From assembly GCA_900314495.1 (NCBI GenBank), contig OMVJ01000015.1, positions 1 through 56,874 of the forward strand: a DNA stretch of 56,874 bases, written 5' to 3'. Made by a program: the position numbers and the translations under genes. The stretch is from an uncultured Olsenella sp. (GTDB taxonomy: Bacteria > Actinomycetota > Coriobacteriia > Coriobacteriales > Atopobiaceae). Of this stretch, positions 37,550 through 43,603 are shown in pieces (the first letter of the stretch is position 1; every line of letters starts with the position of its first letter). The notes below the pieces were generated by a model. The model was not told the DNA's origin. It searched no databases and saw only the letters and a program-made list of their open reading frames with translations.

Positions 37550-38755
37550 ATGAACGACTTCGTCTTCCAGTCACCCACCAAGTTCGTCTTTGGCAGGGGC
37601 TATGTGGACCGCACGGGCGCAGAGGTCAAGGCCCTGAACGCCAAGCGCGTGCTTCTGGTCTGCGGCGGCAGCTCGGCTCGAAGCACCGGCGTGCTGCAGC
37701 GCGTTGAGAAGTCCCTGGCGGACGCGGGAATCAAGTTCCTGGAGCTGGGCGGCGTGCGCCCCAACCCGGAGGTCAAGTTCGTGCGGCAGGGCATCGACCT
37801 CGCGCGCGACAACAGGATCGACCTCATTCTTGCCGTGGGCGGCGGCTCGGCAATAGATTGCGCCAAGGCCATTTCCTTCGGCGTGCCGTCCAACCGCGAC
37901 GTGTGGGACTTCTTCGAGGGCCGCGCCCGCATCAAGAAGGCGCTTCCCGTAGTCGCCGTGCTCACCATTCCGGCGGCTGGCTCGGAGGCCTCTGGCTCTT
38001 GCGTCATCTCCAACGACGCGCTGCAGCTCAAGCGCGGCGTCAACGGCGACGTCTTCCGCCCGCGCGTGGCAATCATGGACCCAGAGGTCACCTTCACCCT
38101 GCCGCCCTACCAGACGGCGGCGGGCGTGACGGACATGATCTGTCATATCTGCGAGCGCTACTTCAGTGGCACCGGCAGCGTGCCCGTCACCGACGGCATC
38201 TGCACCTCGCTCATTCGCTCCGTCATGGACGCGGCCCGCACCGTCATGCAGGCTCCCGACGACTACGACGCGCGCGCCACCATCATGTGGGTGGGCACGC
38301 TTGCCCACAACGACCTCTGCGGTTGCGGCCGCGCCACCGCGCCCCAGAAGCGGGCCGGCGGCTGGGAGAGCCATGGCCTGGAGCACGAGATTTCCGCCCA
38401 CAACCCCGAGGTCACACACGGTGCCGGCCTCGCCGTCATCCTGCCCGCCTGGATGCGCCACGTGTGGCGCGCGCACCCGGAGCGCTTCCTGGCGTTCGCG
38501 CGCGACGTGTTCGGCGTGGAGCCCGCAGACCAGACGGAGGAGGCCGTCGCGCAGGCCGTCACCCGTGGCATAGACGAGCTGCAGGGCTTCTTCGTGCAGA
38601 TGGGCATGCCGCGGACGCTGGACGACCTTGACTGCGGGCGCGACGAGATAGACGCCTGGCTGCGCACCCTGCGCCGCAACAAGGGCGAGAGGTTCGGCGA
38701 GTTCATGCCGCTGACCATGGACGACGCGCGCGCCATCTACGAGTCCGCCTTCTAG
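37550..38755 (+). CDS. Iron-containing alcohol dehydrogenase (butanol dehydrogenase/YqhD-like)
   Basis: 401 residues. FQSPTKFVFGRGYVD at the start and AVGGGSAIDCAKAISFG are typical of the BdhA/YqhD branch of iron-containing alcohol dehydrogenases, which reduce aldehydes with NAD(P)H. Metal ligands: Asp and His in GVTDMICHICERYF, His in SHGLEHEISA and His in EVTHGAGLAV. IPAAGSEASGSCVIS is the substrate loop. ATG at 37550 follows AAAGGACC. The candidate selenoprotein ORF starts 9 nt after its stop and is probably co-transcribed. Confidence 0.9.
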   Translation: MNDFVFQSPTKFVFGRGYVDRTGAEVKALNAKRVLLVCGGSSARSTGVLQRVEKSLADAGIKFLELGGVRPNPEVKFVRQGIDLARDNRIDLILAVGGGSAIDCAKAISFGVPSNRDVWDFFEGRARIKKALPVVAVLTIPAAGSEASGSCVISNDALQLKRGVNGDVFRPRVAIMDPEVTFTLPPYQTAAGVTDMICHICERYFSGTGSVPVTDGICTSLIRSVMDAARTVMQAPDDYDARATIMWVGTLAHNDLCGCGRATAPQKRAGGWESHGLEHEISAHNPEVTHGAGLAVILPAWMRHVWRAHPERFLAFARDVFGVEPADQTEEAVAQAVTRGIDELQGFFVQMGMPRTLDDLDCGRDEIDAWLRTLRRNKGERFGEFMPLTMDDARAIYESAF

Positions 38756-38764
38756 GGCAGCCTC

Positions 38765-39130
38765 ATGCGCATCTTCAAGCCACTCACAGGCGGCCAGGCC
38801 GCAGACCCCGCCTCCCTGGAGAAGGACTTCGCTGCCGCAAGCGTCGTCGCAGAGTCCCGCGTGGGCTCGCTTGCCGTGTTCCCCCGTTCGGAGGCGCGTG
38901 TGCGCACCGCAGACTACCTCCCCCTTTGCGACATTGCCTCCGCGGAGGCAACCAAGCGCCTCATGAGCTGCGGGGGTTGAGGCGGCCCCCGCCTGCGACC
39001 GTGCGTCGTCCTGCAGCTGACCCCAGAGGCTGCCACCTCCGCCCACCAGCGCGAGATTGAGGTGGGCATGGAGAGCCTTGCCTCCGCACGCGCGCTGGCA
39101 GATGCAGTCTCCGGCGCAATCGGGCGCTGA
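38765..39130 (+). CDS. Candidate selenoprotein: small protein with in-frame TGA in a CxxU context
   Basis: From ATG 38765 the frame runs 71 codons to TGA (38978-38980), then 49 more codons in the same frame to a second TGA at 39130, with the same high-GC third-position bias on both sides. Read through, it gives 121 residues with Cys69-Gly-Gly-X72, a CxxU redox motif if TGA is selenocysteine, and PRLRPCVVLQL beyond. A small hairpin at 38995-39009 with a CGUGC loop lies 14 nt after the TGA; a G in the first two loop bases and this distance fit bacterial SECIS elements. Family not recognised. It sits between an alcohol dehydrogenase and thioredoxin. Alternatives: a recent nonsense mutation, or a real 71-residue protein. 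Ribosome site is weak (AGGGCAG). Confidence 0.5.
38995..39009 (+). promoter_or_regulatory. Possible bacterial SECIS hairpin
   Basis: GCGAC-CGTGC-GTCGT forms a 5-bp stem (one G-U) with a loop carrying G at its second position, 19 nt between the TGA and the loop. A second hairpin, GGCGG-CCC-CCGCC (38981-38993), lies directly after the TGA. Stem is short, so this is only suggestive. Confidence 0.35.
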
Positions 39131-39287: not shown

Positions 39288-39593
39288 ATGGCAGAAGTTA
39301 CCATCACTTCCGCAAACTTCGGTCAAGAGGTGCTCAAGTCTGACAAGCCCGTTCTTCTCGACTTCTGGGCAACCTGGTGCGGGCCCTGCCGCGCCCTCAG
39401 CCCCGTCATCGAGGAGATTGCCAACGAGCACCCAGAGATCAAGGTTGGCAAGGTCAACGTGGACGACGAGCCAGAGCTCGCGCAGCAGTTCAGGGTCATG
39501 AGCATCCCCACCCTCTTCGTCTTCAAGAACGGCGAGGCCACCGCTCGCGCGGTGGGCGCCCGTCCCAAGGACGACATTCTTGCCATGATCTAG
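39288..39593 (+). CDS. trxA: Thioredoxin
   Basis: 101-residue classical thioredoxin with active site C31-G-P-C34 in FWATWCGPCRALSPVI, the cis-proline in VMSIPTLFVFKNGE, and normal length. ATG at 39288 with AAAGGCAG upstream. It reduces disulfides in the cytoplasm with a thioredoxin reductase (not in window). It lies 157 nt after the candidate CxxU protein, which could be a partner. A strong terminator follows. Confidence 0.95.
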   Translation: MAEVTITSANFGQEVLKSDKPVLLDFWATWCGPCRALSPVIEEIANEHPEIKVGKVNVDDEPELAQQFRVMSIPTLFVFKNGEATARAVGARPKDDILAMI

Positions 39594-41064: not shown

Positions 41065-41997
41065 ATGGGCAAGAAGATTCGTCTCTACATCCTCACGGGG
41101 TTTCTTGGCTCCGGCAAGACCACCTTTCTCAGGCATGTCCTCACCCAACTGCCCGGCAGGAGGGTCGGCGTGCTGCAGAACGAGTTCGGCAAGCTCTCCA
41201 TAGACGGCGACATCCTGCGCAGCGGTGACATTCAGATGAGGGAGCTCTCCAGCGGCTCCATCTTCTGCTCCTGCCTGCAGCTCAAGTTCGTGCAGGCCCT
41301 GGCAGAGATGAGCGACCAGGAGCTTGACTGCCTCTTCGTGGAGAGCTCCGGCCTCGCGGACCCATCGAACCTCTTTGAGATTCTGGACGCCGTGAACGTG
41401 CTGCGTCCCAACCAGCCCTACGAGCTTGCCGGCACCATCTGCCTTGTGGACGCCGTCGCCTTCCTGCGGGACGCGTCGGAGCTGGAGGCCGTGGTGCGCC
41501 AGGTGGTCCACTGCAACATCGCCCTGGTCAACAAGTGTGACCTGGTTGACCAGCAGCGCGTTGACCAAGTCCACGCGCAGATCCGCGAGTGGAACGCCAA
41601 CTGCCTGGTCGTGGACACGGTCAACGCGGCAATCAGCACCTCCCTCCTGGACCAAGACCTCTCCCACTACGAGTGGGCACCCAGCGAGAACACCACCAAC
41701 AGCGTGGACACCAAGCCCAAGACCTTCTCCATAGAGTTCGGCGACGTTCCGCGCGGCCGCATGTCCGCCTTCCTGGATTCCGTCGGCCCCAGCTGCTACC
41801 GCATCAAGGGCTTCGGCATCCTGGACGGCAGCTGGCAGCAAATCGACGTTGCCGCAGGTCGCACGGACTACAAGCCCTGCGCGGACCAGGGCACGGGGCG
41901 CCTGGTATTCATCTCCCGCATTGGCATCAGGCTCATTCGCCAGATCAAGGACGACTGGGACCGCCTGGTGCAGCTACCCGTAACCTTGCACAACTAG
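41065..41997 (+). CDS. CobW/COG0523 family GTPase (P47K)
   Basis: 310-residue G3E GTPase. Walker A GFLGSGKTT (12-20), Walker B-like LFVESSGLADP, guanine motif NKCD. The metal-binding CxCC motif of the family is reduced to Cys68-Ser-Cys70-Leu (GSIFCSCLQ). A C-terminal CobW_C domain follows (about 220-300). Family members act as metal chaperones or insertases, often for zinc, cobalt or other thiophilic metals. Being first gene of an ArsR-regulated operon with a thiol-redox protein and an ArsP permease, it may handle arsenic, antimony or another soft metal; this is inference. ATG with GAGGGG upstream. Confidence 0.85.
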   Translation: MGKKIRLYILTGFLGSGKTTFLRHVLTQLPGRRVGVLQNEFGKLSIDGDILRSGDIQMRELSSGSIFCSCLQLKFVQALAEMSDQELDCLFVESSGLADPSNLFEILDAVNVLRPNQPYELAGTICLVDAVAFLRDASELEAVVRQVVHCNIALVNKCDLVDQQRVDQVHAQIREWNANCLVVDTVNAAISTSLLDQDLSHYEWAPSENTTNSVDTKPKTFSIEFGDVPRGRMSAFLDSVGPSCYRIKGFGILDGSWQQIDVAAGRTDYKPCADQGTGRLVFISRIGIRLIRQIKDDWDRLVQLPVTLHN

Positions 41998-42049
41998 GCC
42001 CGACCCAAGGCCACGTTCCAGCAGTGGCAACAGGCGCCAGGAGGCAGTC

Positions 42050-42289
42050 ATGAACATCAAGGTCATCGGAACCGGGTGCGACAAGTGCGACGCACTCTAC
42101 GCCAACGTGCAGGAGGCAGTCGCCAACCTCGGCCTTCAGGCAGACATCGAGAAGGTGGAGGATCTGGTCCAGATCGTCCGACTGGGTGTCATGCAGTCCC
42201 CTTCCCTCATGGTGGATGGCAGGCTCGTCTCCGCGGGGAGGGAGCTCAAGACCAAACAGGTGGAGAAGCTCCTCAAGAAGGCTCTGTAG
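42050..42289 (+). CDS. Mini-thioredoxin (Thioredoxin_3 / redox-active disulfide protein)
   Basis: 79 residues, thioredoxin-fold minimal protein with active site Cys10-Asp-Lys-Cys13 (IGTGCDKCDAL) and the cis-proline loop QSPSLMVDGRL. This family (PF13192-like) is often encoded beside ArsP/DUF318 permeases and arsenic genes. It probably passes electrons to, or carries metal for, the permease or GTPase. ATG follows AGGAGG. The permease starts one nucleotide after its stop. Confidence 0.88.
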   Translation: MNIKVIGTGCDKCDALYANVQEAVANLGLQADIEKVEDLVQIVRLGVMQSPSLMVDGRLVSAGRELKTKQVEKLLKKAL

Positions 42290-42290
42290 C

Positions 42291-43304
42291 ATGGCTGCGC
42301 TTGAGGCCATGGGCCCCTTTGTGCTGGACCAACTGCTCAAGATGCAGTGGCTTTCCCTCTTGGTGGCGCGGCTCCTGGGCACCGTGGGGGTGGACACCAC
42401 CTCCAAGCTCGGCGGGACCCTGCAGTTCTTCGTCTATGACACCGTCAAGATCGTCATCCTCCTCTGCGTGCTCATCTTCGTCGTCAGCTGGGTCCAGAGC
42501 TACTTCCCACCCGAGCGCAGCCGCAAGATAATGGGTCGCTTCTCGGGCATGGGCGGCAACGTTGTGGGTGCCCTGCTTGGCACGGTCACACCCTTCTGCA
42601 GCTGTTCCTCCATTCCCATCTTCATGGGCTTTACGCGTGCGGGCCTGCCGCTGGGCGTCACGTTTTCCTTCCTCATCAGCTCCCCCATGGTCGATCTTGG
42701 GTCGCTGGTGCTCATCATGTCCGTCTTTGGTCCCGGCGTCGCGGTGGCATACACGGCAGTCGGGCTGGCCATCGCGGTGGTGGGCGGGGGCATCATCCAG
42801 CACCTGCACATGGAAGACCAGCTCGCGGACTTCGTGCGCGGTGAGGCCCCGGCGGACATCCAGAGCGTGGCCCTTACCAAGGCGGATCGCGCCCGCTACG
42901 CCGCCAGCGAAACCTGGTCCACGTTCAAGAAGGTCGGACCTTACATCCTGCTCGGCGTGGGCATGGGGGCGCTCATCCACAACTGGATTCCGCGCCAGCT
43001 CGTGGAGGCAGTCCTTGGCGGCGCGAACCCCCTTGCGGTGCCGCTTGCCACTCTGGTAGGCGCGCCCATCTACGCCGACACGTTTGGCGCCATCCCCATT
43101 GCCGAGGCCCTCTTCCTCAAGGGCGTCGGACTCGGCACCGTGCTGGCCTTCATGATGAGCGTGACCACGCTCTCCATCCCATCGCTCACCATGCTCTCGC
43201 GCGCCATCAGGCCACGCCTCATGGCGGCCTTTGTCGGCGTCTGCCTGGTTGGCATGGTCATCAGCGGCTACGTTTTCAACTCCATCCAACCACTCCTCGG
43301 GTAA
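42291..43304 (+). CDS. ArsP-type permease (DUF318)
   Basis: 337 residues with about eight membrane helices. The family signature PFCSCSSIPIFMGF (cysteines near 102 and 104) and PMVDLGSLVLIMSVFG are intact, and GAPIYADTFGAIPIAEAL repeats the pattern in the second half. ArsP of Campylobacter exports trivalent organoarsenicals using such cysteines; other family members have unknown cargo. The gene follows the mini-thioredoxin by one nucleotide and precedes arsR by 11, so all four form an operon. Substrate not proven. Confidence 0.85.
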   Translation: MAALEAMGPFVLDQLLKMQWLSLLVARLLGTVGVDTTSKLGGTLQFFVYDTVKIVILLCVLIFVVSWVQSYFPPERSRKIMGRFSGMGGNVVGALLGTVTPFCSCSSIPIFMGFTRAGLPLGVTFSFLISSPMVDLGSLVLIMSVFGPGVAVAYTAVGLAIAVVGGGIIQHLHMEDQLADFVRGEAPADIQSVALTKADRARYAASETWSTFKKVGPYILLGVGMGALIHNWIPRQLVEAVLGGANPLAVPLATLVGAPIYADTFGAIPIAEALFLKGVGLGTVLAFMMSVTTLSIPSLTMLSRAIRPRLMAAFVGVCLVGMVISGYVFNSIQPLLG

Positions 43305-43315
43305 GGAGATAGCCC

Positions 43316-43603
43316 ATGGACCTTGCGGCAGCCTTCAAGGCAATAGGCGAGGAAAAGCGCCTGGCGATACTCCTCGCAATTTGCTCGCACGACGACATCT
43401 GCGCCTGCAACCTCATCAGCAGGTTCGACGTCTCGCAGCCAACGCTTTCCCACCACCTCTCCATTCTGGAGAAGGCGGGACTGGTGACCACCCGCAAGGA
43501 AGGCCGCTGGGTCCACTACACCGCCAACCGAGACAACCTGCGCCAGCTTTCCACTGCCCTTACCGACCTGGCGAACACGGACGGCAAGAACCCTTGCTGC
43601 TAG
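43316..43603 (+). CDS. arsR: ArsR family metalloregulator
   Basis: 95-residue winged-helix repressor: AIGEEKRLAILLAI, recognition region VSQPTLSHHLSILEKAGL, and wing KEGRWVHYTAN. Cys29-Ala-Cys31 in DDICACNL matches the CVC As(III)/Sb(III) site of ArsR, and the protein ends in Cys94-Cys95, a possible third ligand. It likely controls its own operon through the inverted repeat at 40959-40974. ATG follows AAGGAGATAGCCC. Its TAG stop overlaps the stop of the convergent GrdX gene. Confidence 0.92.
   Translation: MDLAAAFKAIGEEKRLAILLAICSHDDICACNLISRFDVSQPTLSHHLSILEKAGLVTTRKEGRWVHYTANRDNLRQLSTALTDLANTDGKNPCC

Follow-up and report, generated by a model that had tools for sequence, protein, structure and literature searches.

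Does the TGA at 38978-38980 end a small gene, or is it decoded as selenocysteine (Sec)? The question arises in a 56,874-nt stretch of DNA from an uncultured Olsenella sp. (hereafter, the window), in which a gene beginning with ATG at 38765 meets this TGA after 71 codons and the same frame then stays open for 49 more codons, up to a final stop TGA at 39128-39130. The original prediction had taken this arrangement, with its C69-G70-G71-TGA motif, for a candidate new selenoprotein. We found each of these elements as described, and none of the three outcomes that it had named as refuting it was observed. We conclude that very probably (probability about 0.94) the TGA encodes Sec and the product is a selenoprotein of 121 residues whose family is undescribed, because relatives retain the same TGA and hairpin, and the protein sequence is conserved to either side of the TGA. 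The features of the locus are as follows.

37550-38755, + strand: iron-containing alcohol dehydrogenase (Fe-ADH), 9 nt upstream of the candidate gene
38765-39130, + strand: predicted selenoprotein coding sequence, 121 residues (38765-39127), Sec at residue 72; homologues on both sides of the TGA
38969-38971, + strand: Cys69 codon, three before Sec; CxxU in the window gene only, position not conserved
38978-38980, + strand: in-frame TGA, predicted to be read as Sec72; TGA at the same position in RUG001 (G002) and G263, Cys in RUG161 (G081)
38995-39009, + strand: putative apical stem-loop of a bacterial SECIS, GCGAC-CGUGC-GUCGU; one compensatory pair change in G263; a single occurrence in each Sec-form genome
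39002-39004, + strand: Cys80 codon, in an RPC motif; kept in each of the three Sec forms, whereas the Cys form (G081) has Gln
39288-39593, + strand: thioredoxin (WCGPC), 157 nt downstream; a possible reductant

Conservation across the TGA

As the original prediction had remarked, TGA is otherwise a rare stop in the window (2 of 36 other probable genes), and the candidate gene's own final stop is TGA as well. The window is GC-rich, and at least 49 open codons follow 27% of all its TGAs; a Cys at -2 or -3 with long open frames on both sides occurs at 7 places over the six frames. The hairpin is at most mildly more stable than shuffled sequence (z = -1.9 over 34 nt and -0.1 over 44 nt). The open frame, the Cys at -3 and the hairpin energy were thus all within chance and were rejected as stand-alone evidence. 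Because the pattern in the window alone is not beyond chance, the verdict rests on comparison, and it is the comparative data that give the pattern its significance.

A search of 397 Coriobacteriales genomes, reading through stops, returned four members of the family: the window protein itself; RUG001 (G002), an uncultured Olsenella of the same genus, 38% identical to the window protein and with one TGA; RUG161 (G081), an uncultured Olsenella of the same family, with no stop and a Cys at the aligned position; and G263, a genome of another family, with one TGA at the aligned position and about 24% protein identity. This sample is small, with two of the four known members coming from one genus. 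Scanning named genomes turned up the RUG001 and RUG161 records and no others; there was no member in samples of the class and phylum outside Coriobacteriales, nor among the plasmids, phages and IMG/VR sequences searched. Around the key position, the window reads LMSCGG-U-GGPRLRPCVV, RUG001 VVRGCG-U-GGPTVRPCVV, G263 VKTNG-U-CGGYSEQPCVAI and RUG161 GCGCG-C-GGDGSAVQPQVAI. The homologues therefore carry either TGA or Cys here, the pattern that the original prediction had proposed to look for. In RUG161 (GCGCG-C-GG), the choice of the exact column is helped by the three Cys of GCGCGC.

Conservation also continues past the TGA. Between the window and RUG001, 24 of 71 residues are identical before the TGA and 19 of 49 after it (z = 15.7 and 11.4, respectively, over residue shuffles), i.e., this pair appears equally conserved on both sides. 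For the part after the TGA, RUG001 and RUG161 give z = 9.0 over shuffles, pairs with G263 are weak (z = 2.7-2.9), and the window versus RUG161 is at chance level.

These data bear on the possibility that the TGA is a true stop, created by a nonsense mutation or a sequencing error, and that the gene is a decaying pseudogene. The first ORF does end at the TGA after 71 codons, and the window's frequency of long open frames after TGA would allow for such an accident. However, the TGA is aligned in three genomes from two families whose proteins share 24-38% identity, a fourth has Cys, conservation runs past the TGA and the hairpin is conserved, all of which makes this account very improbable.

The hairpin and the selenium machinery

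The original prediction had placed a hairpin with a G-containing loop 14 nt downstream of the TGA. We find GCGAC-CGTGC-GTCGT there, where G and U occupy loop positions 2 and 3, and it is kept in RUG001 and G263. The stem-loop is the same in the window and RUG001; in G263 (GCAAC-CGUGC-GUUGC), the loop is unchanged and one G-C pair has become A-U by a compensatory double change. Sixteen nucleotides around the hairpin (UGCGACCGUGCGUCGU) are identical between the window and RUG001 despite 38% protein identity; they include CGA, a rare codon for Arg (5 of 169). Over the three hairpins, 15 of 15 pair cells are standard (20-67% in sliding controls), and the probability of a 5-bp stem given the peptides and codon usage is 0.03, 0.03 and 0.07 for the three Sec forms. 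The covariation of the five pairs, which comprises three sequences and one double change, was reached by 180 of 500 shuffles. The pattern GCRACCGTGCGTYGY, which was derived from these same three hairpins, occurs once each in the window genome, G002 and G263, only at the hairpin, 14-17 nt after the TGA; it is absent from G081 (the Cys form), G008 and G001.

Published limits for bacterial SECIS elements are a loop of 3-9 nt, a stem of 4-16 bp, a G in the first two loop positions, a distance of 16-37 nt from the UGA and a minimum free energy (MFE) of at most -7.5 (PMC13188914). The hairpins lie within all of these, with a 5-nt loop (CGUGC), 5 bp, a loop start 19 nt from the UGA in the window and up to 22 nt in G263, and MFEs of -14.7, -25.1 and -19.7 kcal/mol (window, G002 and G263). 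Rfam gave no match at this locus.

The window genome (2.8 Mb, 99% complete) has the four components that the original prediction had named for a search, selA, selB, selC (tRNA-Sec) and selD. All four lie in one cluster, with tRNA-Sec just upstream of selA; the cluster also includes yedF, coding for a YedF-like selenium protein (TIGR03527), and a cysteine desulfurase/SclA-like gene. SelD is itself a TGA-containing selenoprotein, AASG-U-AAKM (AASGUAAKM), and GrdA, encoded on another contig than the window (G000:C36:31475-31915), has one TGA in CFV-U. Given the machinery and these two TGA-containing genes, UGA decoding as Sec is in use in this genome. In plain ORF calling, SelD (G000:C36, L004 about 17425, - strand) loses its N-terminus at the TGA.

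We considered whether one SECIS loop is common to the genome's selenoproteins and rejected it, as the hairpins of SelD (CTCGCTCA-GGTCC-TGAGCGAG) and GrdA (CTGG-AGAA-CCAG) differ from that of the candidate; the SECIS is gene-specific within the window genome. Both selA and tRNA-Sec are present in G002, G081 and G263, so that loss of the Sec machinery was also rejected as the cause of the Cys form in G081. A separate observation concerns G001, a genome of the same genus (83% complete) without selA, a strong tRNA-Sec or a family member; possession of the Sec trait may vary across the genus, or this genome may be incomplete.

Conservation strictly shows readthrough only, but selenium-free decoding of the UGA as a different residue (Trp or Arg, through near-cognate suppression or an altered code) is scarcely credible, since UGA serves as an ordinary stop at the end of the candidate gene and in two other window genes, G081 has a Cys form, the Sec machinery is complete and a SECIS-type hairpin sits at the required distance.

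Family identity and predicted fold

The decoding is ordinary. In the libraries searched, this protein family has no description, in line with the original suspicion. Searches of Pfam, PHROGs and PDB sequences gave no meaningful match for any of the four members, and the single NCBIfam match (E = 0.061) was irrelevant; no NCBIfam selenoprotein model matched. None of the 119 prokaryotic selenoprotein families catalogued in 2026 has these properties (PMC13188914), and papers naming Olsenella or Coriobacteria with selenoproteins contain nothing on the family. The hypothetical selenoproteins DG, DW and DF (deep-Sep, PMC12013277) and other orphan families in Table 1 of PMC13188914 are alike in being predicted from sequence, lacking a known domain and having both Sec and Cys homologues; however, their NCBIfam models (e.g., NF049953, NF049942, NF041197) match 0 of 4 members at E up to 10.

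The CGGU motif had been put forward as a CxxU redox motif. It is present in the window gene, but its spacing is not shared: the nearby Cys shifts from C-3 in the window (CxxU) to C-2 in RUG001 (CGU, i.e., CxU) and C+1 in G263 (UC), and a Cys at Sec-3, the mark of the CxxU class, is not conserved across the family. What is constant in the Sec forms is U, the flanking Gly residues and a Cys 8-9 residues downstream. The Cys form of RUG161 has several Cys before the position and none after it. The candidate resembles CxxU selenoproteins such as GrdA (PF04723) and the SelW-like family (PF10262) in having a UGA-encoded Sec near a Cys in the same turn and SelB/SECIS decoding; it differs in showing no sequence similarity to them and in its unconserved Cys spacing. 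The family matches neither GrdA nor thioredoxin-like proteins.

AlphaFold2 on the four-row alignment (pLDDT 70, pTM 0.70) predicts a helix, beta strands and a C-terminal helix; Sec72 falls in a low-confidence turn between strands 63-69 and 76-85. Among the best Foldseek matches, PH, PTB and FERM domains account for almost all, and each is weak on its own (none better than E = 0.025); the best VIA-align alignment covers 81 residues at 2.2 A with Z = 8.3. With moderate confidence, the models suggest a small PH-like beta barrel with a C-terminal helix, likely though not secure (the superfamily criterion is a seven-strand barrel closed by a C-terminal helix), and, with the same confidence and as far as they show, a protein that is not thioredoxin-like.

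G008/G079 encode a 349-aa protein whose N-terminal domain is a distant relative (blastp E = 2e-4 against G263). This domain has the same predicted arrangement, and its weak matches mix PH-like and other domains. Unlike the candidate, the 349-aa protein lacks both Sec and Cys in the turn, which reads MSRGGFSGKG, and is fused to a membrane-spanning-looking region, features that it shares with WP_207649282.1. The latter, labelled 'ATPase P', lies on the Butyrivibrio fibrisolvens plasmid pNP243 (NZ_CP146964.1, L050 1968-2975), and its PH-like N-terminal domain is 54% identical to that of the G008/G079 protein; its name looks wrong.

Genomic neighbourhood and possible function

Both neighbours named in the original prediction, alcohol dehydrogenase and thioredoxin, are present, but thioredoxin is not found near the other three members. 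The GrdX gene 4.5 kb away is likewise real (NF038093; 43603-44028, - strand), stands without glycine reductase genes beside it, and is not seen near the other three. As neither is a conserved neighbour, as far as the contigs show, we rejected both as supporting context. Only Fe-ADH recurs, in G002, where an orthologue 71% identical lies 0.9 kb from the gene on the other strand; no neighbour is constant. In G002, a flavin reductase (PF01613) precedes the gene by 9 nt. Fe-ADH and the candidate gene in the window are probably on the same transcript and, given the 9-nt gaps in both genomes, the gene is probably co-transcribed with redox genes. Elsewhere in the window, a CobW GTPase, an ArsE/MTH895-like small thioredoxin, an ArsP_1 permease and an ArsR-type regulator stand in a row (41065-43603), like an arsenic or redox stress cluster.

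Comparison with its relatives shows a UGA intended for readthrough, accompanied by a bacterial SECIS hairpin whose loop starts 19 nt downstream; from established knowledge, SelB carrying Sec-tRNA(Sec) would bind the hairpin and insert Sec72. In the model, Sec72 would then lie in the Gly-rich turn, with the conserved Cys80 on the second strand and Cys69 beside it (moderate confidence), and its exposed selenol could serve as a redox-active or a metal- or electrophile-binding group. A role in selenol/thiol redox is our best guess, at roughly even odds: Sec72 and either Cys80 or Cys69 might form a selenenylsulfide for thioredoxin to reduce, although thioredoxin as the reductant is less likely than not.

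A serious rival, which we regard as quite possible, is that the protein is a selenoprotein whose Sec and nearby Cys bind a metal or electrophile (for storage, scavenging or sensing) without electron turnover. The Gly/Cys-rich mobile turn with varying Cys positions (CGGU, CGU, UC, GCGCGC) recalls metal-binding loops, and PH-like folds are mostly binding modules rather than enzymes. On the other hand, the downstream Cys kept in the Sec forms suits a selenenylsulfide, and the redox neighbours in two genomes (Fe-ADH and thioredoxin in the window; flavin reductase in G002) favour the redox role.

The candidate could, with a chance that we put near one half, represent the first selenoprotein family on a PH-like barrel, combining a non-catalytic binding fold with a reactive selenol in a mobile turn, where the invariant pair is Sec with the downstream Cys and the partner Cys is free to move. 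The family has probably been overlooked so far because ordinary ORF calling cuts the gene at the TGA. It would give gut and rumen Coriobacteria a further selenoprotein family, with a fold apparently new among selenoproteins, and supply a compact conserved SECIS loop (ACCGUGCGU) from an actinobacterial lineage. The Sec and Cys forms of G002 and G081 would offer a clean pair for asking what selenium buys.
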